Source of the DNA: Pseudoclavibacter helvolus
Lineage (GTDB): Bacteria; Actinomycetota; Actinomycetes; Actinomycetales; Microbacteriaceae
Assembly (NCBI RefSeq): GCF_014191305.1
Contig: NZ_JACHWJ010000004.1
Location: forward strand, 248,001 to 312,000
DNA length: 64,000 nt
Reading direction: 5' to 3'
Under the pieces are notes generated by a model, which was not told the origin of the DNA, searched no databases, and saw nothing but the letters and a program-made list of their open reading frames with translations. Shown here one piece after another: positions 1 to 11,368 of the stretch; the first letter of the stretch is position 1; every line of letters starts with the position of its first letter. A program made the position numbers and the translations under genes.

Positions 1-357
1 GCGCGCATCGAGGCCGCGCACGGGGTGCGCCCCGGTTGGCAGGAGTGGCTCCGCGACGACACGATCGTGTGCCGCTGCGAGGAGGTCACGGCGGGCCAGC
101 TGCGCCGGAAGGCCTCCGCCACCCGATCTCGGAGCCTCCGCTCGCAGAAGCTCTCCACCCGTGCGGGCCTCGGTATCTGCCAGGCGCGCATCTGCGGCCG
201 CAGCGCCGAGGAGCTGCTGCGAGCAGCGACGGGCGCGGCGCGCGAGCTTGACGAGGGCATCGTCGACCGACGCCCCATCCAGACCCCCATCCGGCTCGCA
301 GAGCTGGCAGGAATCTCAGAAGAACAGCATCCCTCGACAGGAAGGCAAGACCCATGA
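1..357 (+). CDS. FAD-dependent dehydrogenase subunit, C-terminal [2Fe-2S] BFD-like part (partial)
   Basis: The reading frame is open from the first base of the window, so only the C-terminal ~118 residues are present. They contain a CxC pair (TIVCRCEEV) and a later C-x4-C pair (GICQARIC), the spacing of the BFD-like [2Fe-2S] domain at the C-terminus of the alpha subunit of HcnB/OoxA-type amino-acid dehydrogenases. The gene ends in an ATGA overlap with a DapA-family gene and lies upstream of a proline-racemase-family and a KGSA-dehydrogenase gene. By this context it is most likely a subunit of D-hydroxyproline dehydrogenase, oxidising cis-4-hydroxy-D-proline to the pyrroline carboxylate. An opine or other D-amino-acid dehydrogenase cannot be excluded, because the FAD domain lies outside the window. 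Confidence 0.75.
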   Translation, partial: ARIEAAHGVRPGWQEWLRDDTIVCRCEEVTAGQLRRKASATRSRSLRSQKLSTRAGLGICQARICGRSAEELLRAATGAARELDEGIVDRRPIQTPIRLAELAGISEEQHPSTGRQDP

Positions 358-1295
358 CCGCAACAGCTTCCACGCACCTCGACCTCGGCGGTGTCGTCGT
401 CGCGACGGCGCTCCCGTACAAGGAAGACGCCTCGGCTCCTGCCGGCCTCGCCGTCGACTACGACGCGTACGCCGAGCACTGCAACTGGCTCATCGAGAAC
501 GGCTGCCGCGGCGTCGGCCCGAACGGTTCGCTCGGCGAGTACTCGTCGCTTACTGACGAGGAGCGCCGCAAGGTCGTGCAGGTCGCCGTGGAGACCGTCG
601 GCGACCGCGGCATCGTCGTGGCCGGCGTGCACGGACCGGGCTGGCACCAGGCGCAGTACTGGACGCAGCTCGCCAAGGAGGACGGCGCACACGGCGTGCT
701 CTGCCTCCCGCCGACCATGTACCGCTCGGCCGATGCCGATGTCGCCGAGCACTTCGCGAAGGTCGCCGAGGTTGGTCTTCCCGTCATGATCTACAACAAC
801 CCGCTCGACACGAAGGTCGACCTCCGGCCGGAGCTCGTCGCGGAAATCGCAAAGATCGACGGCATCGTCGCCGTCAAGGAGTTCTCGGGCGATGTGCGCC
901 GCGCATTCGAGATCCAGGAGGCCTGCGAGGCGGCTGGGTCGACGATCGACGTCATCGCGGGAAGCGATGACGTGCTGTTCGAGCTCATGATCGACGGTGC
1001 CACCGGATGGTTCGCCGGCTACCCGAACGTGTTCCCCGCAGAGGCGGTCGCGATCTACGACAACATGGCCGCCGGCCGCTACGTCGAGGCGCGCGAAATT
1101 TACAAGAGCCTGATCGCCGCGTTCCGCTGGGACTCTCGCACGGAGTTCGTGCAGGCGATCAAGCTCGGCATGGACATGGTCGGTCGCAATGGCGGGCCCT
1201 GCCGTCCGCCACGCGCGGCGCTCACGCCTGCCATGGAGGCGCAGGTACGCGCCGACACGCAGCGCGCCCTCGACGCACTCGCCGCCCTCAAGTAG
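354..1295 (+). CDS. DapA-family lyase, probable 1-pyrroline-4-hydroxy-2-carboxylate deaminase
   Basis: This 313-residue protein is a class I aldolase-fold member of the dihydrodipicolinate synthase family. The GxxGE-type motif (GPNGSLGEY, residues 55-63), the catalytic tyrosine in IYNNP (Tyr147) and the Schiff-base lysine in VAVKEFSGD (Lys175) are all present. It is unlikely to be the biosynthetic DapA, because it sits between a BFD-type dehydrogenase subunit and a proline-racemase-family epimerase. That is the arrangement of the hydroxyproline pathway, where a DapA homologue deaminates pyrroline-4-hydroxy-2-carboxylate to 2-oxoglutarate semialdehyde. The start ATG overlaps the previous stop codon (ATGA), which indicates translational coupling. 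The exact substrate is inferred from the neighbours. Confidence 0.85.
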   Translation: MTATASTHLDLGGVVVATALPYKEDASAPAGLAVDYDAYAEHCNWLIENGCRGVGPNGSLGEYSSLTDEERRKVVQVAVETVGDRGIVVAGVHGPGWHQAQYWTQLAKEDGAHGVLCLPPTMYRSADADVAEHFAKVAEVGLPVMIYNNPLDTKVDLRPELVAEIAKIDGIVAVKEFSGDVRRAFEIQEACEAAGSTIDVIAGSDDVLFELMIDGATGWFAGYPNVFPAEAVAIYDNMAAGRYVEAREIYKSLIAAFRWDSRTEFVQAIKLGMDMVGRNGGPCRPPRAALTPAMEAQVRADTQRALDALAALK

Positions 1296-1434
1296 GGTCG
1301 CAGCAGACATGGGGGTCGATGTTCAAGCCCCCTGCCGTCTGCTCGCGGGTCTCTTCCCGCACCATGCGACGCAATCCGGCAATAGCGCCGGTTGCGTCTG
1401 GCCCGCGGGGTGATCCCCCTCTTCCCGCCGGGCC

Positions 1435-1466
1435 GGCTGCCCGGGGTGCCCCCACTCCGGGCAGCC
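1435..1466 (+). terminator. Intercistronic hairpin between the DapA-like and epimerase genes
   Basis: Perfect 10-bp inverted repeat GGCTGCCCGG / CCGGGCAGCC with a 12-nt loop, followed by only a short CTTT. It lies in the 200-bp gap between two genes of one pathway. It could be a weak terminator or attenuator, or a 3'-end stabilising structure that sets the relative expression of upstream and downstream cistrons. Confidence 0.5.
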
Positions 1467-1495
1467 CTTTACTTCACGTCACGAGGTCATCTGAC

Positions 1496-2503
1496 ATGCG
1501 AGCATCACGAGTCATCTCCGCCGTCGATTCCCACACGGAGGGGATGCCGACCAGGGTCGTCACTGGAGGCGTTGGGGTCATCCCCGGCGCGACCATGAAC
1601 GAGAAGCGCCTTTTTGTCCAGGAGCATCGCGACGACCTGCGCACGTTCCTCATGCGGGAACCGCGCGGCCACTCCGCGATGAGCGGGAGCATCCTGCAAC
1701 CGCCGACAAGGCCGGATGCCGACTTCGGTGTCCTCTACATCGAGGTCTCCGGCTTGTTGCCCATGTGCGGGCACGGCACGATCGGCACGGCGACGGTGCT
1801 CGTCGAGACAGGGATGGTCGAGGTTCACGAACCGGAGACCGTCATCAGGCTCGATACTCCGGCGGGTCTTGTGATTGCTCGCGTCGAAGTGAGCGAAGGA
1901 CGTGCTGTTAGCGTTACCATCGAGAACGTGCCCAGCTTCTGCGAACGCCTCGACGCCGTCGTCCCGGTGCCGGAACTTGGCATCGACGCGCTCAGGTACT
2001 CGCTCGCGTTCGGCGGAAACTACTACGCCATGGTCGACCTCGAGGACGTCGGCCTGCCCTTCGACCGCGCCCGCAAGGACGACATCATGCGGGCCGGGCT
2101 CGCCATCATGGACGCGATCAACACGCACGACGCACCTCAGCATCCGACGATCCAGGGCGTCGACCACGTGCACCACGTCGAGTTCATAGCTCCTGGATCC
2201 GATGCCGCCCACTCGCGTCATGCCATGGCGATCTACCCAGGCTGGTTCGACCGCTCGCCCTGCGGCACCGGCACGTCCGCACGCATGGCCGAGCTGCACG
2301 CCAGGGGTGAGCTGCCGCTGCACACCGACTTCGTCAACGAGTCGTTCATCGGCACGAGCTTCACGGGGCGGCTCATCGACGAGGTGCAGGTGGGCGACCA
2401 CGCGGCCGTGATCCCGACCATCAAGGGCCGTGCCTGGATCACCGGCATGGGCCAGTACATGCTCGACCCGACAGACCCGTTCCCGGCAGGATTCGAATTC
2501 TAG
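1496..2503 (+). CDS. Proline racemase family protein, probable 4-hydroxyproline 2-epimerase
   Basis: This 335-residue cytosolic enzyme has both catalytic cysteines of the proline racemase family: Cys91 in MCGHGTIG and Cys256 in RSPCGTGTSA. A Cys/Cys pair is typical of racemases and epimerases, whereas the dehydratase branch (trans-3-hydroxyproline dehydratase) replaces one cysteine with Thr or Ser. The expected reaction is trans-4-hydroxy-L-proline to cis-4-hydroxy-D-proline, the first pathway step. The start ATG was chosen because it opens directly into the family's N-terminus (VISAVDSHTEGMPTR) and has GAGG about nine bases upstream; longer in-frame extensions are low-complexity. The flanking deaminase and aldehyde dehydrogenase support hydroxyproline over proline as substrate. 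Confidence 0.88.
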   Translation: MRASRVISAVDSHTEGMPTRVVTGGVGVIPGATMNEKRLFVQEHRDDLRTFLMREPRGHSAMSGSILQPPTRPDADFGVLYIEVSGLLPMCGHGTIGTATVLVETGMVEVHEPETVIRLDTPAGLVIARVEVSEGRAVSVTIENVPSFCERLDAVVPVPELGIDALRYSLAFGGNYYAMVDLEDVGLPFDRARKDDIMRAGLAIMDAINTHDAPQHPTIQGVDHVHHVEFIAPGSDAAHSRHAMAIYPGWFDRSPCGTGTSARMAELHARGELPLHTDFVNESFIGTSFTGRLIDEVQVGDHAAVIPTIKGRAWITGMGQYMLDPTDPFPAGFEF

Positions 2504-2516
2504 ATTGGACTCATCG

Positions 2517-4034
2517 ATGAGCACACCCACCCCGCTCACCAGCGACGCCGAGCTCGAGCAGATTCTCGCGGCGGCAGCCGTCGCCGCCCCCGTCTGGGCG
2601 GCGACGCCCCCGACCGAACGCGCCTCGGCGCTCATCGCGGTCGCTGACGCGCTCGACCAGGCCGCGGGGGAGCTCATCCCGATCGGCATGCGCGAGACGG
2701 GCCTCGCCCAGGCTCGCCTCACGGGCGAGCTGAAGCGAACGACCGTGCAGATCCGTCTCTTCGCGGATGTCATCCGCGACGGCTCGTACCTCGACGTTCG
2801 CCTCGACGAGGCAGACCCCGACTTCGTGCTCGGACCACGCCCCGACGTGCGGCGGATGCTCGTGCCGGTCGGCGTGGCCGTCAACTTCTCTGCCTCCAAC
2901 TTCCCGTTCGCCTTCTCCGTGGCGGGTGGGGACTCGGCTGCGGCTCTCGCTGCCGGCTGCGCGCTCATCGTCAAGGGCCACTCGGGGCACCCGGAGCTGT
3001 CGGTCGCGACGGCGCGGGTTGTTGAGGGCGCGCTTCGCGCTGCTGGGGCACCCGACGGCGTCTTCGCGCTTGTCCTCGGCCAGCAGGCCGGTGTCACCGT
3101 GCTCGAAGACGACCGCGTCGATGTCGGCACCTTCACTGGGTCGATCCGCGTGGGTCGCCTGCTCGCTGACAAGGCCGCGGCGCGACCGCGCCCGATCCAG
3201 TTCTACGGCGAGCTTGGCAGCGTCAACCCCGTGTTCGTGACGGGGGCCGCCCTCGCTGAGCGCGGCGAGGAGATCGCGACCGGTTACGCCGCTTCGGTTG
3301 CCGGCTCCGCGGGGCAGCTCTGCACGAAGCCCGGCTTCCTCTGGGTACCCGCGTCGGATGCGGCCGCCGAGCTTGAGCTCCGCGTCTCGCAGGCCGCCGA
3401 GCAGGCCGCCGAGCACCGCCTCCTCAACCCGAGCATCGGACGCGCCTACATCGAGCGACGTGCTGCGGTGCTCGACGCGGAGGGCGTTCGCGTTGTTGCG
3501 GAAGGGTCCGTGCGCAGTGGCGACGACGGCAACGTCTGGGCGACGCCAACGATCGTTGCAGTGCCAGCGAGCAAGCTCGAAGCCGGTGACGAGACACTGC
3601 TCGACGAGGTCTTCGGACCGTTCTCCATCATCGTCGAGTACGCCGAAGAGGCGTCGCTGGCTCCGAGCCTCGACGAGCTCTACGTCGGCAACCTGACCGG
3701 CACGGTGCATGCCGCGGCTGGCGAGCAGTCGCCCGCGCTCTCCTCTCTCGTCGCTGGCCTCGCTAGGAAGACGGGACGTGTGCTCTTCGGTGGCTGGCCG
3801 ACGGGCGTTGCCGTCACTCCGGCGATGCAGCACGGCGGACCCTACCCGGCGACCTCGAACGACACCTCCACGTCGGTCGGCACCGCATCCATCTCCCGCT
3901 TCCTGCGCGGCGTCGCCTACCAGGGCGCGCCGCAGGAGGCGCTGCCGGAACCGCTGCAGGATGCCAACCCCTGGGGCGTGCCGCAGCAGCGTGCCGCCGC
4001 CGGTCAGTCGGTCAGCTGGGGCTCGAAGGCCTGA
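2517..4034 (+). CDS. Aldehyde dehydrogenase, probable 2-oxoglutarate semialdehyde (2,5-dioxovalerate) dehydrogenase
   Basis: This 505-residue NAD(P)-dependent aldehyde dehydrogenase has the general base Glu232 in FYGELGSVNP, the nucleophile Cys269 in GSAGQLCTKPG and the cofactor lysine in IVKGHSGHP (Lys153). The ELGSVNP and GQxCTKPG variants are characteristic of the KGSADH branch of the superfamily. It would oxidise 2-oxoglutarate semialdehyde to 2-oxoglutarate, the last step of hydroxyproline catabolism, which also fits its neighbours. It begins 13 bases after the epimerase stop. No strong Shine-Dalgarno is visible, so translation may depend on readthrough from the epimerase. Its 3' end overlaps the tail of a convergent minus-strand pseudogene by 31 bases. 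Confidence 0.88.
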   Translation: MSTPTPLTSDAELEQILAAAAVAAPVWAATPPTERASALIAVADALDQAAGELIPIGMRETGLAQARLTGELKRTTVQIRLFADVIRDGSYLDVRLDEADPDFVLGPRPDVRRMLVPVGVAVNFSASNFPFAFSVAGGDSAAALAAGCALIVKGHSGHPELSVATARVVEGALRAAGAPDGVFALVLGQQAGVTVLEDDRVDVGTFTGSIRVGRLLADKAAARPRPIQFYGELGSVNPVFVTGAALAERGEEIATGYAASVAGSAGQLCTKPGFLWVPASDAAAELELRVSQAAEQAAEHRLLNPSIGRAYIERRAAVLDAEGVRVVAEGSVRSGDDGNVWATPTIVAVPASKLEAGDETLLDEVFGPFSIIVEYAEEASLAPSLDELYVGNLTGTVHAAAGEQSPALSSLVAGLARKTGRVLFGGWPTGVAVTPAMQHGGPYPATSNDTSTSVGTASISRFLRGVAYQGAPQEALPEPLQDANPWGVPQQRAAAGQSVSWGSKA

Positions 4035-4880
4035 GCTTCGCCGAGAGGCCTGAACTTCGACGAGAGGCGGGAGCGCAGCGTGGGTGCGGTCGGTGAGGCT
4101 TCCGCCTCCGGAAGGCGCCCGCGTCTGCGCAACTCGGGGACGACGTATTCGACGAAGTCCGCAAGCGAACCAGGCAGGATGGCGGGAGTCACGACGAAAC
4201 CGTCGGCGGCTCCGGCGTCCTGCCATTCGCAGAGCTCGTCGGCGATGTCGGCCCCGCTGCCGGTCGGCGACGGCGTGAGCTGATCGAACGACTGCCGCAG
4301 CGCGAGGTCACGCACCGTCAGTCCCTCGCGTCGACACACCGCGGCGAGCATGTCCTCGAATCCTTCGCTGCCGGTTGCGTCCCGATGGTCTGCGAGGAAG
4401 TCGACGGCAGGGTCTTGGAGCCGGATGCTGGCCGGGTCCGCGTGCATGAGCCGGGCGAGTGAGCGCACGGCGGAGGCCTCGTCGATGTGCGCGAGGAGTG
4501 AGGCCCGCTGACTGGCTGCATCGATGTTCGTCGATCCAGCGATGGGCTGAATCGCCGCGCACACCCTGAGCTCGTCCGGGTTGCGCCCGGCAAGGCGCGC
4601 GCGCTCGCGCAGCTCGGTGCGCACGGCGAGGTTGCCTTCTATGCCGTCGGCCGCGATGAAGACGAGCTCCGCCCACTTCGCGGCGAACTCCATGCCGCGG
4701 GGAGAGGCACCAGCCTGCATGAGCACCGGGTGGCCCTGTGGACTCCGTGGCAGGCTCAGCGGACCAGGGGCCGCAGAACGCTCTCGCGGCGCCGGAGTGC
4801 GGGCAACCAGCCTCGGGTCTGCGAACAGGCCGCTCTCGGCTTCCTGAACCAGCGCGTCGGCGTGCCAGGTTCCCATCACG
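4004..4880 (-). pseudogene. NtaA/SnaA/DmoA-family FMN monooxygenase, 5'-truncated remnant
   Basis: From the sequence GTWHADALV onward the frame matches the C-terminal ~290 residues of bacterial-luciferase-like monooxygenases of the nitrilotriacetate/pristinamycin type. Landmarks are GLFADPRLV, then GPLSLPRSPQGHPVLMQAGAS, then VFIAADGIEGN, and the C-terminal DGFVVTPAILPGSLADFVEYVVPELRRRG. The N-terminal part of the (beta/alpha)8 barrel, which includes much of the FMN site, is absent. Upstream of the breakpoint the DNA instead encodes an ABC exporter in another frame. No start codon with a ribosome binding site precedes the remnant, so it is almost certainly non-functional. The frame itself has no internal stop, which suggests a fairly recent rearrangement. 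Confidence 0.8.
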
Positions 4881-6044
4881 CGGGACGCGGAGTGAGACGC
4901 CCTTGAGGACCTCCACGTCGGGCGCATCCGCGTAGGCGAAATGCACGTCGTCGAGGTTCAGGTCGCCAGCGAAGCTCACCTCGCCGAGCGGAGGCACGTG
5001 CTCGTCAAGCTCATCGAGTTCGTCGTACTCCTCGAGGAGCGCTTCGACGCCGGGCCAGCACGCCTTCAGGGCGCCGGCCGAGCCGAGCAGACGGACGGCG
5101 CTCGGCAGCATCCGCACGCCGGCGACGCCGAATGTCGCGAGGGCGACCAGGGAAGAGCCGCTCCCGCCGGTCGCCGAGAACAGCACTACCGCCGCTCCGG
5201 CAAGGACAAACACGAAGACGATCTCGAACACGTGCTTCGGAAGTTCGCCGAGGAAGCCGAGCTGGCGCTGCGCATCCACTGACTGACGATTCGCCCCCTC
5301 GAACTCGTCGACGAACGGGCCAGCGTTGTCGCGGAGCTTGACCTCCTGGGCGCCGCCGCAGGCCTGCAGTGTCGCCGCTCCGGCCGCCTGCGCCAGGTGG
5401 ATGCTCAGGCGACCGAGACGCTCCTGCCGTGCCCGCACGACGCGTTGGAAGACCGGCCCGAGCACTGCGATCAGGAGGAACGAGGCGACGGCCAGGGCTG
5501 GCTGAATGATGATGACGGCCACCGCGAGCATGAGCATCGAGAGCATTTCGGCAACGATCCCGAGCACCGTCGAAATGGCTCGGAAGGCCATCCCGACAAC
5601 TGTGCCGAGCACGTTCGAGAGCTCCGCGTAGCCGCGGCGACGGTGCATCGAATACGGGGCGAGCAAGTGCCTGCGCATGAGGTTCGATGCGACGCGAACG
5701 TGCTCGTGGGCGAGGACCCCCGACGCCCACCAGCGGAAGACCAGGCCGAAGACCGCCTTGAGGATGAACGCGCCTGCGAGGAGCCCTGCGGCCGCGAGCA
5801 TGTAGTCGGGGCTCGCCGGGGAGGGAAGCAGCGGGTCGAGGATCGCGGCTCCCGCGATGGTCGCCGACGAGTCACCGCTGAGCGCCTACATGAGCGGCAC
5901 CATGGCGAGCACCCCGACCAGGTCGAGCACGGAAGCGAACGTTGTGCCGAGCACCAGAAGGATCAGCTTGCGCCTGGTCGACGCCGAGAAGACCTCGAAG
6001 AGCATCCGGCGCAGCTCCTCGACCTGGCGCGGCTTTGAAGTCAT
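4880..6044 (-). pseudogene. ABC exporter membrane domain, interrupted by TAG and 3'-truncated
   Basis: Starting at the ATG at 6044, the frame reads MTSKPRQVEELRRMLFEVFS, then a first membrane segment and AMVPLM, then TAG at 5888-5886 (codon 53), and continues in the same frame with ALSGDSSATIAG. PLMQ would be a natural continuation, so a CAG-to-TAG change is likely. The rest shows the six-helix exporter fold (AELSNVLGTVVGMAFRAIS; ACGGAQEVKLRDNAGPFVDEF) and the linker into the nucleotide-binding domain (LDDVHFAYADAPDVEVLKGVSLRVP). There the ABC homology stops, just before the Walker A motif, and flavin-monooxygenase DNA follows. With no ATPase domain and a premature stop, this is a dead gene. 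Confidence 0.85.
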
Positions 6045-6122: not shown

Positions 6123-7127
6123 TCAGCCCTGCGGGTAGGTCTCGCGCAGGATTCGGCCGAGGTAGGCGGCGATCGCGCCGGGTCCGGAGCCCTCTGCGAC
6201 GCGCTCGACGTCGGCGTTGTAGTTGGTGTTCGTGTTGATGTCGTAGACGACCTGGCGGCCGTCCTCGGTCTCGATGAACTCGATGCCGGCGATCTCGAGG
6301 CCGATGTCGTTCGTGAAGGCCACGAGGCGCTCCACGAGATCGTCGTGGCCGCCCTGACGAAGCGAGAAGATCGAGGTACCTGGCTCCGGCGCCAGCTCCG
6401 CGCCTGGCGGGACCACGGGGCGGCCGGTGTCTGGGTCGATCGCGCACGCGTCCGCCGGGCAGAGCTGGAAGCCGCCGTGGATGGTGTCTGCCGCGATCGA
6501 GTAGATGTGCTCGCCGCCCACGATCTCGACGCGAGTGATGAACCCGCCAGCGGGCCGCAGGTACTCCTGCAGGAGGGTGATGCCGTCGAGCGGTTCCTCG
6601 AACTCGGGGGAGTCCAGGTAGCCCTCGAACTCGGCGAAGTCGTCGAAACGGCGCACACCGAGGCCCTTTCCGCCCTGGTTGTGCTTCGTGATGAACGGCG
6701 TCGGGAACTCGCGCGCCGCATCCCGCAGTCCCTGCTTGCCGATGATGGCGAGCGTGCGCGGGGTGTCGATGCCCGCCTTGCGAAGCAGCGTCAGCTGATC
6801 GACCTTGCTGACCTCGAGCTCGATGGCGCGGCGGCCGTTGACGGTGCGGCGACCCGCGGCCTCGACCCAGTTGAGCACCGACCGCGCGTAGTCCTTCGCC
6901 AGCGCGTGGTCGCGCGTGTGCGATGAGGCGCTGATGCGGGACCAGAAGATGCCCTCTGGCGGCAGCGCGTCGATGTCGAGCACGCCCTCGATGAGTCGCC
7001 ACTCGACGACCGGCACGCCAGCCTTCTCGAACGCGGCCTGGAACGGCGGCCACCACTCGGGGTTCTCGTGCAGGGCGTAGACGGCGGGCGTGGATGCAGC
7101 GGGCTGCGTGGAGATCTGTGTGCTCAA
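6123..7127 (-). CDS. ATP-grasp domain ligase (RimK/glutamate-ligase-like)
   Basis: This 334-residue soluble protein has an N-terminal pre-ATP-grasp region (VYALHENPEWWPPFQAAF) and an ATP-grasp domain. Visible motifs are the phosphate-binding lysine and glycine loop TKHNQGGKGLGVRRF, the hinge LLQEYLRP, and the metal-binding strand IEFIETEDG...VYDINTNTNYN. Such enzymes activate a carboxylate as acyl phosphate and join it to an amine or thiol; the substrate here is unknown. It starts at TTG, which overlaps the stop of the upstream M20 hydrolase gene (TTGA), with GAAGGG eight bases before, so the two are translationally coupled. No biosynthetic core enzyme lies nearby. It could act as a peptide or amino-acid ligase whose product is related to the hydrolase's substrate. 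Confidence 0.8.
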   Translation of the reverse strand: MSTQISTQPAASTPAVYALHENPEWWPPFQAAFEKAGVPVVEWRLIEGVLDIDALPPEGIFWSRISASSHTRDHALAKDYARSVLNWVEAAGRRTVNGRRAIELEVSKVDQLTLLRKAGIDTPRTLAIIGKQGLRDAAREFPTPFITKHNQGGKGLGVRRFDDFAEFEGYLDSPEFEEPLDGITLLQEYLRPAGGFITRVEIVGGEHIYSIAADTIHGGFQLCPADACAIDPDTGRPVVPPGAELAPEPGTSIFSLRQGGHDDLVERLVAFTNDIGLEIAGIEFIETEDGRQVVYDINTNTNYNADVERVAEGSGPGAIAAYLGRILRETYPQG

Positions 7128-8527
7128 GAGAAGAACCCTTCGACGTCGAGTGCGCCGCCTGCCGCGTCGAAATCGGCGCGGGCGGCAGCACGGAGATTGG
7201 AATCGGCGAGGAAATCTGCGGCGACAAGAGCGAGCCCGGAGCTCGCATCGGCGATGGCCGTGCTCGCGGCATCGCTCGTTGCATACTCGGCGAATTCGCG
7301 CGTGTGCAGGCTCACGTCGGGTGGGCTGATCGCGATGACCGGGTGGATGCCGGGCACGCGCACGCTGACGTTACCGAAATCGGTCGAGGCTGCGAGGTGC
7401 GACGGCACGGACGCCTTGGTCAGCACGCGGCGGCCACGCGTCTCCTGGTGCACGGCCCACCGCTCCGAAAGGGGAGTGTTGTAGCGCAGTGGCATCGTGA
7501 AAGGCAGCGGGTCCCACTCGACCTCGACGCCGGTGCCGGTGGCGAGGGCGATGCCGTTGGCGATGTCCTCGAGGCGAAGGCTCAGCTCCTTGAGCGTCTT
7601 GGCTGCGTTCGAGCGCACGTAGTACTCGAGCTCCGCGAACTCGGGCACGACGTTCGGGCGCTGACCGCCGTTGACGATGACGCCGTGGATGCGGTCGCCC
7701 GGGTAGAGGTGCTGCCTGAGCAGGCCCGTCGCCTGGTAGTTCAGGTTGGCCGCGTCGAGTGCATTTCGGCCCTGGAACGGGGAGGCTGATGCGTGGGCGG
7801 GGACCCCGTAGTAGCGCACGCGCAGGATGCGCCGGCCGATGAAGGGCTGGTCCGTCACGTCGTAGCCGAACGGGTGGATCATGATGGCCGCATCGACGCC
7901 CTCGAAGGCGCCGGCGCGAGCCATGATCTCCTTGCCGTTTCCGCCCTCCTCCGCTGGGCTGCCGTACAGCAGCACACGTCCAGCGGGGAGCTCGCGCGTG
8001 CGGCTCGCCTCGACAAGCGAGAGGAACGCGCCTACGGCCGAAGCCGCGATGATGTTGTGCCCGCAGCCGTGCCCGACACCCGGCAGGGCGTCGTACTCCG
8101 CGAGGATCGCCACCGTCGGCGCATCCGGAGCCGCTTCCCCGAGCGCAAGCTCGGCGACCAGGGCCGTGTCGAGTCCAAAGGCACCTACCTGAGCCGTGAC
8201 ACCGTGCTCGGCGAGGAGCTCGGCGATGTCGGCGACGCTCTGCGTCTCCTCGAAGCCTTCCTCGGCGTACTCGAAGATGCGGTGCGAGAGCTCGACGAGC
8301 TCTGGCTGCAGGGAGTCAGAGGCGGCGCGGACGGCCGCGGCGTCATCGCCGGACGCACCTTCGTGAGCCGAGGTGATCCGCGGGGCGGCGGCTGCGGCGA
8401 TCGCGGTCTCGGCCGCCACGAGGTCGAGGTACGTGCTGCTCGGGGTCGTGGGGGATGCGCCCACCCTGATCCCGCGGGTCGCCCTGGATTCTCGGGGTGC
8501 GCTGGTCGGGTCCGCTGCTTCGCTCAC
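7124..8527 (-). CDS. M20D-subfamily metallo-amidohydrolase (AbgB/peptidase-dimerisation type)
   Basis: This 467-residue protein shows the M20D zinc-site pattern: GHGCGHN (Cys155, His157), the Glu pair in PAEEGGNGK (193-194), His218 in MIHPFG, and the dimerisation-domain histidine in PAHASASPFQGRNALDA. M20D members hydrolyse small amide bonds such as p-aminobenzoyl-glutamate or N-acyl amino acids. The GTG start at 8527 is preceded by AAGGAG with eight-base spacing; frames extending further upstream are low-complexity and overlap the divergent gene's promoter. The stop codon overlaps the start of the ATP-grasp ligase, so an amide hydrolase and a putative amide ligase are made together. The physiological substrate is not evident. 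Confidence 0.87.
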   Translation of the reverse strand: MSEAADPTSAPRESRATRGIRVGASPTTPSSTYLDLVAAETAIAAAAAPRITSAHEGASGDDAAAVRAASDSLQPELVELSHRIFEYAEEGFEETQSVADIAELLAEHGVTAQVGAFGLDTALVAELALGEAAPDAPTVAILAEYDALPGVGHGCGHNIIAASAVGAFLSLVEASRTRELPAGRVLLYGSPAEEGGNGKEIMARAGAFEGVDAAIMIHPFGYDVTDQPFIGRRILRVRYYGVPAHASASPFQGRNALDAANLNYQATGLLRQHLYPGDRIHGVIVNGGQRPNVVPEFAELEYYVRSNAAKTLKELSLRLEDIANGIALATGTGVEVEWDPLPFTMPLRYNTPLSERWAVHQETRGRRVLTKASVPSHLAASTDFGNVSVRVPGIHPVIAISPPDVSLHTREFAEYATSDAASTAIADASSGLALVAADFLADSNLRAAARADFDAAGGALDVEGFFS

Positions 8528-8665: not shown

Positions 8666-8956
8666 ATGTTCATCGTCGGTGCCGTGCTGCTCGGGCTCAG
8701 CCTCGGGCTTACGACCTGGGCGCACTTCCTCGTCGGCAGGGCGGGCGCCGGACGCAGGCTCCCCATCTTCAAGGACCCTCCTGGCACTCCCAAACTCGCG
8801 AGCTGGCTGCGGATGGGCGGCGCGCTGCTGGCGGTAGTCGCGGCCGGGCAGCTCTGGCACGTCATCGGGCTCTTCGCGATGCTGCCTGTCGCCCTCGTGC
8901 TCTTTGTGCCAGGACTCATCGCGCACTCGCGGCACGAGCGTACGCTTCGCTCATGA
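8666..8956 (+). CDS. Small hypothetical membrane protein
   Basis: This ~96-residue protein has an N-terminal hydrophobic segment (MFIVGAVLLGLSLGLTTWAHFL) and one or two more around residues 50-90 (GALLAVVAAGQLWHVIGLF; LPVALVLFVPGLIA), ending in a basic tail. I do not recognise a family. TACAGT at 8651-8656 resembles a -10 box and would start transcription near 8663, so the mRNA may be leaderless, with GTG 8663 or ATG 8666 as start. Its last codon overlaps the next gene (ATGA), so it is probably co-expressed with the UBP zinc-finger protein. It is divergent from the M20/ATP-grasp pair. Confidence 0.65.
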   Translation: MFIVGAVLLGLSLGLTTWAHFLVGRAGAGRRLPIFKDPPGTPKLASWLRMGGALLAVVAAGQLWHVIGLFAMLPVALVLFVPGLIAHSRHERTLRS

Positions 8957-10861: not shown

Positions 10862-11368
10862 TCAGTGCCTGAGCGGGTCCGCGGTCGGGGCTGTGCTGAC
10901 GGGCTTCTCGAAGGCGAAGACGGGCAGGTCGAATTCGGGGATGCGCCGCTCGCCGCCTTCGAAGCCGGAGGCACGGTACAGGGCGACCGCCTCTGGTTGG
11001 CGGGAGCCTGTCGTGAGGAAGATGCGCGTGTAGCCGAGCTCTCCTGCGGCGGTGTCGAGTTCACGGAGCACTCGCTGCGCGAGGCCGCGGCGGCGGTGCG
11101 AGTCGCGCGTCCACATGCGCTTCACTTCGGCCGTGGTCTCGTCGTAGCGGCGGATGGCGCCGGCCGCGACGAGCAGGTCGCCGTCGAGGATCCCGACGAA
11201 CGCCCCGTCTGGTGCGATGAAGTCGGTCAGGGGGTAGGCGGCGATGTCGTTCTTGTAGAACTCCCGGTACCTGGCGCGGTACTCGCCGTCGAGGGCGTCA
11301 AGCACTTCGCTGACCTCTGCTGAGGTGACGTCGAGGCGGCGGACGGTGAGGGCGGATGTCATGCGCAC
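10862..11368 (-). CDS. GNAT family N-acetyltransferase
   Basis: This 168-residue protein has the GNAT fold. Motif A for acetyl-CoA binding is visible as VKRMWTRDSHRRRGLAQRVLREL, with R-x-x-G-L-A replacing the usual RxxGxG/A. It is followed by the beta5-alpha4 region IFLTTGSRQPEAVALYRASGFE, the common NxxAxxLYxxxGF-type motif B. The acceptor substrate cannot be told from sequence. GTG at 11368 has GGAG six bases upstream; ATG at 11362 is an alternative start. The gene lies 16 bases upstream of the alpha/beta hydrolase on the same strand, so the two may be co-transcribed. Confidence 0.85.
   Translation of the reverse strand: MRMTSALTVRRLDVTSAEVSEVLDALDGEYRARYREFYKNDIAAYPLTDFIAPDGAFVGILDGDLLVAAGAIRRYDETTAEVKRMWTRDSHRRRGLAQRVLRELDTAAGELGYTRIFLTTGSRQPEAVALYRASGFEGGERRIPEFDLPVFAFEKPVSTAPTADPLRH

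Follow-up and report, generated by a model that had tools for sequence, protein, structure and literature searches.

An overlapping M20D hydrolase and ATP-grasp ligase gene pair in Pseudoclavibacter helvolus, and the sulfur-related genes found near homologs of its ligase

Why would a bacterium encode an enzyme predicted to hydrolyze amide bonds and an enzyme predicted to form them in two overlapping genes? This question is raised by a 64,000-nucleotide stretch of the Pseudoclavibacter helvolus genome (contig NZ_JACHWJ010000004.1, positions 248,001 to 312,000; termed the window), in which an M20D amidohydrolase gene is followed on the reverse strand by an ATP-grasp ligase gene. The initial annotation of this locus reported the two genes and a TTGA stop/start overlap between them, and both hold, with the families now assigned by profile. 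The elements of the pair are as follows.

7124-8527 (-): M20D amidohydrolase gene, 467 amino acids, PM20D2/HmrA-like, with CGHN, PAEEG, HP and HT active-site motifs
6123-7127 (-): RimK/LysX-like ATP-grasp gene, 334 amino acids, with invariant K148-HNQGGKG, E188 and D296-x-N298
7124-7127 (-): TTGA stop/start overlap, read in the sequence, which would couple translation of the two genes
8541-8536 (-): AAGGAG ribosome-binding site of the M20D gene, read in the sequence, with 8-nucleotide spacing to the start
7140-7136 (-): AAGGG ribosome-binding site of the ATP-grasp gene, read in the sequence within the M20D gene, 8 bases from the start

The hydrolase gene begins with a GTG codon at 8527 and ends with TGA at 7126-7124, and the ligase gene begins with TTG at 7127-7125 and has a stop codon ending at 6123. 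The hydrolase start is backed by its ribosome-binding site and by relatives in loci L009 and L010 that align from the first residue. Relatives give no support to a start at 8935, which corresponds to the longest open reading frame (603 amino acids).

Taken alone, a gene overlap of 4 bases is nothing unusual in bacterial operons. All 11 abutting pairs compared, those of the window and of locus L091 among them, keep an in-frame NTGA overlap whose first base is A, G or T. The set does not contain L036, where a 707-base gap with no called gene separates the partners, or the masked locus L037, and the starts in L010, L011 and L016 were set by hand. Since no abutting pair compared lacks the overlap, the association of hydrolase and ligase is more than chance. 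Furthermore, the ratio of nonsynonymous to synonymous substitution rates (dN/dS) against four Pseudoclavibacter genomes is 0.027-0.067 for the hydrolase gene and 0.052-0.139 for the ligase gene, and reaches 0.30 and 0.38, respectively, against a more distant Leifsonia locus (L012). These low values indicate that both genes are under purifying selection.

The hydrolase passes the M20D model TIGR01891 with 227.9 bits (cut-off 153.75), and its predicted structure has a mean predicted local distance difference test score (pLDDT) of 87.5. In an alignment of 23 sequences, the metal-site residues C135, H137, E173, E174 and H198 are invariant and H388 is nearly so, its only absence being in L037, which is disrupted by the masked stretch. 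We take the CGH, PAEEG, H-P and HT motifs to have the catalytic and metal-binding roles usual for them. Compared as a profile with solved structures, the hydrolase scores 286 bits against Xaa-Arg dipeptidase (PM20D2), 260 against HmrA, 85 against YxeP and 78 against an aminobenzoyl-glutamate utilization protein (3io1). A single-sequence search likewise returned Xaa-Arg dipeptidase chains as the nearest solved relatives (E value of 8e-59). Judged by its closest solved relatives, the protein is closest to PM20D2 and is predicted to be dipeptidase-like. Assignment as an N-acetylcysteine deacetylase of the ScmP/YxeP type is weakened by the low score against YxeP (1ysj).

The ligase narrowly passes PF08443 (RimK; 22.8 bits, gathering score 21) and falls below cut-off in all four NCBIfam models listed for it. 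It scores 65.4 bits in TIGR00768 (cut-off 143.4), 19.8 in NF007764 for the RimK S6 glutamate ligase (cut-off 331) and 45.8 in TIGR02144 for LysX/ArgX (cut-off 275.6). LysX and ArgX need the carrier LysW, and the best match to TIGR01206 in the window genome is 14.4 bits against a cut-off of 53.2. Judged by these family cut-offs and by the lack of a LysW over cut-off, the functions of RimK, LysX and ArgX are all rejected for this protein. Such proteins should not be annotated as ribosomal S6 or lysine-biosynthesis ligases.

The ligase is nevertheless part of a well-conserved family. Residues K148 with HNQGGKG, E188 and D296-x-N298, which have catalytic roles in such enzymes, are conserved across 39 aligned sequences, and the aligned proteins, from Actinomycetota and Chloroflexota, are 55-96% identical to that of the window. 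A predicted structure (pLDDT 85.8) matches LysX (3vpd_A) with a Z score of 24.3 over 273 aligned residues at 2.9 A, and also matches ArgX and RimK (Z score of 23.3 for RimK) over its length, at 15-21% identity. The carnosine synthase CARNS1 is not among the structure matches listed, which excludes nothing. Proteins of the LysX/ArgX/RimK fold join amino acids to carboxylates, and it is therefore likely, from the modeled fold, that the ligase catalyzes carboxylate-amine ligation, with a substrate that the fold does not name. No characterized member of the family was found by family scans or among titles and abstract openings in the open-access literature.

How widely are the two genes kept together? 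A ligase scan of 84,980 species genomes gave 236 relatives, and the best 80 of the 236 loci were kept; these are not independent, as 28 come from Curtobacterium. A lack of conserved adjacency in related genera had been set beforehand as refutation of the pairing. Adjacency was found: a hydrolase gene lies within about 2.1 kilobases (kb) upstream of the ligase gene in 22 of the 80 loci, comprising 9 abutting Microbacteriaceae loci, 12 of 19 Arthrobacter loci and one metagenome-assembled genome (MAG). Besides the MAG, the genera represented are Pseudoclavibacter, Leifsonia, Glaciihabitans, Cryobacterium and Arthrobacter. An AbgT transporter gene stands between the partners in 11 of the 12 Arthrobacter pair loci (order M20D-AbgT-ligase), and an LLM flavin monooxygenase gene does so in the MAG. 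No hydrolase was called in any of the 28 Curtobacterium ligase loci.

Among 199 Microbacteriaceae genomes, 36 have the ligase and 6 have a close hydrolase relative (more than 600 bits), which lies beside the ligase in 5 of these 6; 31 of the 36 ligase-bearing genomes carry no hydrolase within 6 kb. In a class-wide sample of 296 genomes, the ligase is present in 3 and a close hydrolase in 9, and only the window genome has both together, with one other (G440) having them on different contigs. Proximity to M20D changes at least 9 times on a tree of 81 ligases, from which most Curtobacterium and several Clavibacter and Arthrobacter sequences were dropped as near-duplicates and L118, L119, L120 and L090 were omitted as repeats of loci already included.

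The hydrolase tree places the Microbacteriaceae members and one Actinomycetales MAG in a single clade (13 rows, support 100/100). LLM genes occur within the fetched stretch at 12 of the 13 loci, starting about 4.6 kb beyond the hydrolase in L091; the window, the one exception, holds only a remnant. A second clade contains Arthrobacter and more distant actinobacterial members, with AbgT as the usual neighbor; M20D adjoins AbgT in 5 of the 7 more distant loci fetched, and a ligase is beside none. In L110-L113 and L115, close M20D relatives from other actinobacterial families stand beside an AbgT gene, and no ligase was called.

Neither partner needs the other. A strict two-gene system is ruled out, since each partner often occurs alone, and the pair is an optional module of larger clusters. 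The functional pair put forward in the initial annotation is thus partly supported: the coupling is real, as the conserved adjacency attests, but the unit is larger than two genes and is not self-contained.

The annotation also called for a search for additional shared neighbors, and these were found around the ligase as flavin monooxygenases and enzymes of sulfur amino acid metabolism. An LLM flavin monooxygenase gene lies within 6 kb of the ligase in 21 of the 36 Microbacteriaceae genomes (2.4 expected), and a Cys/Met-metabolism pyridoxal phosphate (PLP) enzyme gene, termed MetY-type, in 11 (1.3 expected). An LLM, MetY-type or PatB-like gene is within this distance in 26 of the 36, and the hydrolase in 5. 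With one genome per genus (19 genomes), the counts are 10 for LLM (1.3 expected), 8 for MetY-type (0.7 expected) and 14 for any of the three. The 36-genome sample shares at least 4 genera with the loci that prompted the idea, and the count was hence repeated on the 15 genera whose loci do not repeat those where the pattern was first noted, some of which may still be ones seen before. Here LLM is near the ligase in 8 (1.0 expected), MetY-type in 7 (0.6) and either in 11 (1.5). The ligase is thus statistically associated with LLM and MetY-type genes.

Several choices define these counts. The 6-kb rule was fixed after the locus maps had been viewed, and the expected numbers, calculated for LLM and MetY-type genes, assume uniform gene placement, the LLM figure being drawn from the genomes' own LLM counts. 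The MetY label denotes a Cys/Met-metabolism PLP cluster that includes members only 35% identical. Genes were called with a home-made codon-usage caller, which missed or mis-started some, and neighbors were labeled by BLASTP to cluster representatives, so that unlabeled genes may hide further relatives. Loci L035 and L052 lost the ligase call, and L052 yielded no gene calls, which leaves its neighbors undefined.

Family scans of the neighbors show likeness to known enzymes at differing levels. LLM neighbors of the NtaA/DmoA type score over cut-off, while SfnG-like LLM proteins (TIGR04021, 259-269 bits, cut-off 383), an SfnB-like oxidoreductase (253 bits, cut-off 431) and PatB-like lyases (302 and 309 bits, cut-off 340) fall below. 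Other scanned neighbors are a PALP-family enzyme, peptide-type ABC parts, GNAT proteins and DUF1684 proteins. In L058 (Thermomicrobiales), MetY-type and molybdopterin oxidoreductase genes precede the ligase. In L091, the ligase gene also overlaps by 4 bases with the gene after it, which encodes a second M20 hydrolase (530 bits in NF005913, over cut-off). Also, a DUF1684 protein recurs beside an LLM gene in LLM/M20D clusters (L012 7504-8343, L016 8534-9403, L043, L046 and L089), and in four of these five loci it belongs to a CE1758-like cluster.

What might an amide ligase and an amide hydrolase do among such genes? A precedent in logic is the scm/yxe pathway of Bacillus subtilis, in which an S-modified cysteine is acetylated, broken by a flavin mononucleotide (FMN) monooxygenase and deacetylated by the metal-dependent ScmP/YxeP, with the acetylation likened by the authors to a chemist's protecting group (PMC9706529; PMC12757645). 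In the salvage of S-(2-succino)cysteine the three steps fall to the acetyltransferase ScmL, the FMN monooxygenase ScmK and the M20D deacetylase ScmP. Loci examined here likewise cluster M20D with LLM monooxygenases, and some of them contain a GNAT gene. The likeness would thus lie in a sequence of protection, breakage and deprotection.

Because this logic is matched by loci that share LLM and M20D genes and add a ligase expected to form amides, we favor a reading in which the pair attaches and releases an amide-linked group on an organosulfur amine, as a module added to clusters that scavenge organosulfur compounds. We hold this reading tentatively, as a possibility that is more doubtful than assured. 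The pair, its conservation, the ligase fold and the gene association are established here, and on them we infer the following chemistry, substrate and order of steps. The ligase would join an amino acid or other carboxylate to the amine of a small organosulfur molecule, with an S-substituted cysteine or a similar amine as the probable substrate. Once that molecule is protected, neighboring flavin monooxygenases could cleave its C-S bond, after which the dipeptidase-like M20D hydrolase would remove the attached group. The amino acid so freed might pass to MetY-, PALP- or PatB-like sulfur assimilation. An amide made with ATP would replace or accompany the acetyl group of the scm/yxe logic.

The more specific proposal, that these genes form a new sulfur-salvage step with ATP-grasp protection as a dipeptide-like amide, C-S cleavage by a flavin enzyme and PM20D2-like deprotection, present in Microbacteriaceae and partly in Arthrobacter and Thermomicrobiales, we regard as unlikely on present evidence. 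Were attachment, oxidation and release to occur as outlined, protecting groups in cysteine salvage would not be limited to acetyl. The conserved ligase family and its sulfur-gene association in any case give a concrete role that can be tested. A search of titles and abstract openings in the open-access literature found no description of the pair or of the ligase/LLM neighborhood.

A number of observations weigh against this attach-and-release reading. The hydrolase is nearer to Xaa-Arg dipeptidase than to YxeP/ScmP (286 versus 85 bits), which places the likeness to scm/yxe in logic and not in orthology. An ATP-grasp ligase is present here and is not listed for scm/yxe in the accessible portions of the two reports (PMC9706529; PMC12757645), and the monooxygenase gene beside the window pair is broken, with no intact LLM gene next to the pair. 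The ligase is not essential to hydrolase-containing LLM clusters, as genome G142 (L089) has such a cluster and no ligase match. A GNAT gene was called in L089 and also in the ligase clusters L012, L043, L045, L046 and L091, and this co-occurrence weakens the idea that the ligase is a plain stand-in for a GNAT acetyltransferase or a simple substitute for acetylation. No GNAT label was assigned in the Pseudoclavibacter loci L009-L011 and L049, and the small window gene at 10862-11368 had no family search. Ten of the 36 ligase genomes have no LLM, MetY-type or PatB-like gene within 6 kb, including all 3 genomes of the genus whose loci match Clavibacter ones, and the 19 Arthrobacter loci yielded no call of an LLM- or MetY-cluster gene. 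Of ten more neighbors that were scanned, most fall in families with no tie to sulfur (MFS, RDD, beta-lactamase, nucleotidyltransferase, BrkB, endonuclease/phosphatase, aldehyde dehydrogenase, ABC1 kinase and two GNAT-AIRS proteins).

The Arthrobacter loci could point instead to a route of uptake and breakdown, in which an N-acyl or peptide-like amino acid would enter through an AbgT-type carrier and be hydrolyzed by M20D, the ligase would re-use one product, and the monooxygenase context would have been recruited later in Microbacteriaceae. The M20D-AbgT-ligase order in Arthrobacter and the adjacency of M20D and AbgT in the more distant loci, where the ligase is absent, fit this route, as does the carrier itself, which exceeds the cut-off of PF03806 and scores 412 bits in TIGR00819 (cut-off 754). 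However, no AbgT was called in the window locus or in the Microbacteriaceae pair loci, and the route does not explain why LLM and MetY-type genes are enriched near ligases that lack M20D; we consider this route somewhat unlikely. The suggestion of a folate-derived substrate in the initial annotation finds a hint in the Arthrobacter AbgT genes alone, and nothing at the window locus supports it.

PM20D2 removes side products of carnosine synthase, itself an ATP-grasp enzyme, and by analogy the hydrolase might clear wrong products of a ligase that makes a useful dipeptide-like amide. Such proofreading would suit both the Xaa-Arg dipeptidase chains found as nearest solved relatives and the overlapping genes, which would give matched amounts of the two proteins. 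It accords poorly with the many ligase genomes that lack a nearby hydrolase, with the occurrence of the hydrolase clade without the ligase, and with a ligase fold matching LysX and RimK (the absence of CARNS1 from the listed matches being uninformative), and we judge it rather improbable. The two genes might also share no pathway, being independently useful and having drifted into one operon within a mobile region of accessory metabolism. The number of times that proximity to M20D changes across the ligase tree, the frequency with which each partner stands alone, the decayed flanking genes of the window and the presence of the ligase near MSMEG_0567/0568-type genes in two genera are all consistent with drift. 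Yet the overlap is retained in every abutting pair, across genera, the pairing recurs in Arthrobacter and Microbacteriaceae, and both genes are under purifying selection. An operon without a joint pathway seems to us rather improbable.

The initial annotation knew of no named two-gene system with exactly this composition. Pairings of ATP-grasp and M20-family proteins do have precedents, namely LysX with LysK and carnosine synthase with PM20D2. In the LysW-carried synthesis of lysine and arginine by LysX/ArgX, the product is released by LysK, an M20-superfamily hydrolase that is not of the M20D type. The window ligase shares the ATP-grasp fold of LysX, but differs from it by the TIGR02144 score and the missing LysW described above. 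Carnosine synthase and PM20D2 resemble the pair as an ATP-grasp ligase with a PM20D2-like dipeptidase, but the ligase here is of the RimK/LysX type and belongs to a bacterial operon in a sulfur-gene context. A resemblance to the AbgA/AbgB/AbgT system for p-aminobenzoyl-glutamate utilization lies in the M20D hydrolases that Arthrobacter and other actinobacterial relatives combine with a carrier of the AbgT family, but the window locus has no called AbgT, the hydrolase scores poorly against 3io1 and a ligase is added. Finally, the scavenging of dimethylsulfone and sulfonates by SfnG and SfnB is echoed in Microbacteriaceae loci where SfnG-like LLM and SfnB-like oxidoreductase genes adjoin the ligase, but these neighbors score below the equivalog cut-offs, and we know of no part played by the ligase or the hydrolase in that pathway.

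Two loci from different genera place the ligase in another setting. In L097 (4537-5943) it is directly beside an MSMEG_0567/sll0787-type GNAT-AIRS gene, and in L105 (8977-11447) it is near such a gene and an MSMEG_0568 radical SAM gene. These are clusters of the nitrogen-starvation type, with no obvious reason to hold the ligase.

The neighborhood of the pair in the window contains the following features.

4746-6044 (-): broken ABC-transporter gene that shares 82.5% identity with residues 1-441 of the 605-amino-acid transporter encoded after the ligase in L011
5888-5886 (-): in-frame TAG within the broken ABC-transporter gene, read in the sequence
4064-4870 (-): C-terminal remnant of an NtaA/DmoA-family (LLM) flavin monooxygenase gene, from a family scan and relatives

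Downstream of the ligase, the Pseudoclavibacter loci L009, L010, L011 and L049 carry two LLM genes on the opposite strand, one of 455 and one of 384-397 codons, which a scan of L009 assigns to the NtaA/DmoA family, and L011 has a full-length ABC transporter gene between the ligase and the LLM genes. The window remnant is about 30% identical to the monooxygenases of these relatives, and the best match in the window genome to their 455-amino-acid monooxygenase is 52% identical and located elsewhere. The broken ABC and LLM genes run together at 4064-6044 (-), which suggests a deletion junction. The neighborhood in the window genome is thus a decaying version, within which the pair remains conserved. 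With the nearby monooxygenase and ABC genes broken, the pair there would therefore be fed by enzymes encoded elsewhere or retain a residual function.

Convergent with the pair, genes of the DHDPS, proline racemase and aldehyde dehydrogenase families stand in a row at 354-4034 (+), and presumably serve hydroxyproline catabolism. At other positions of the window genome, two LLM genes lie in tandem (G000:C1, 510043-512543) and an LLM gene adjoins an M20 gene (G000:C1, 1348812-1351573), each a possible scavenging cluster.

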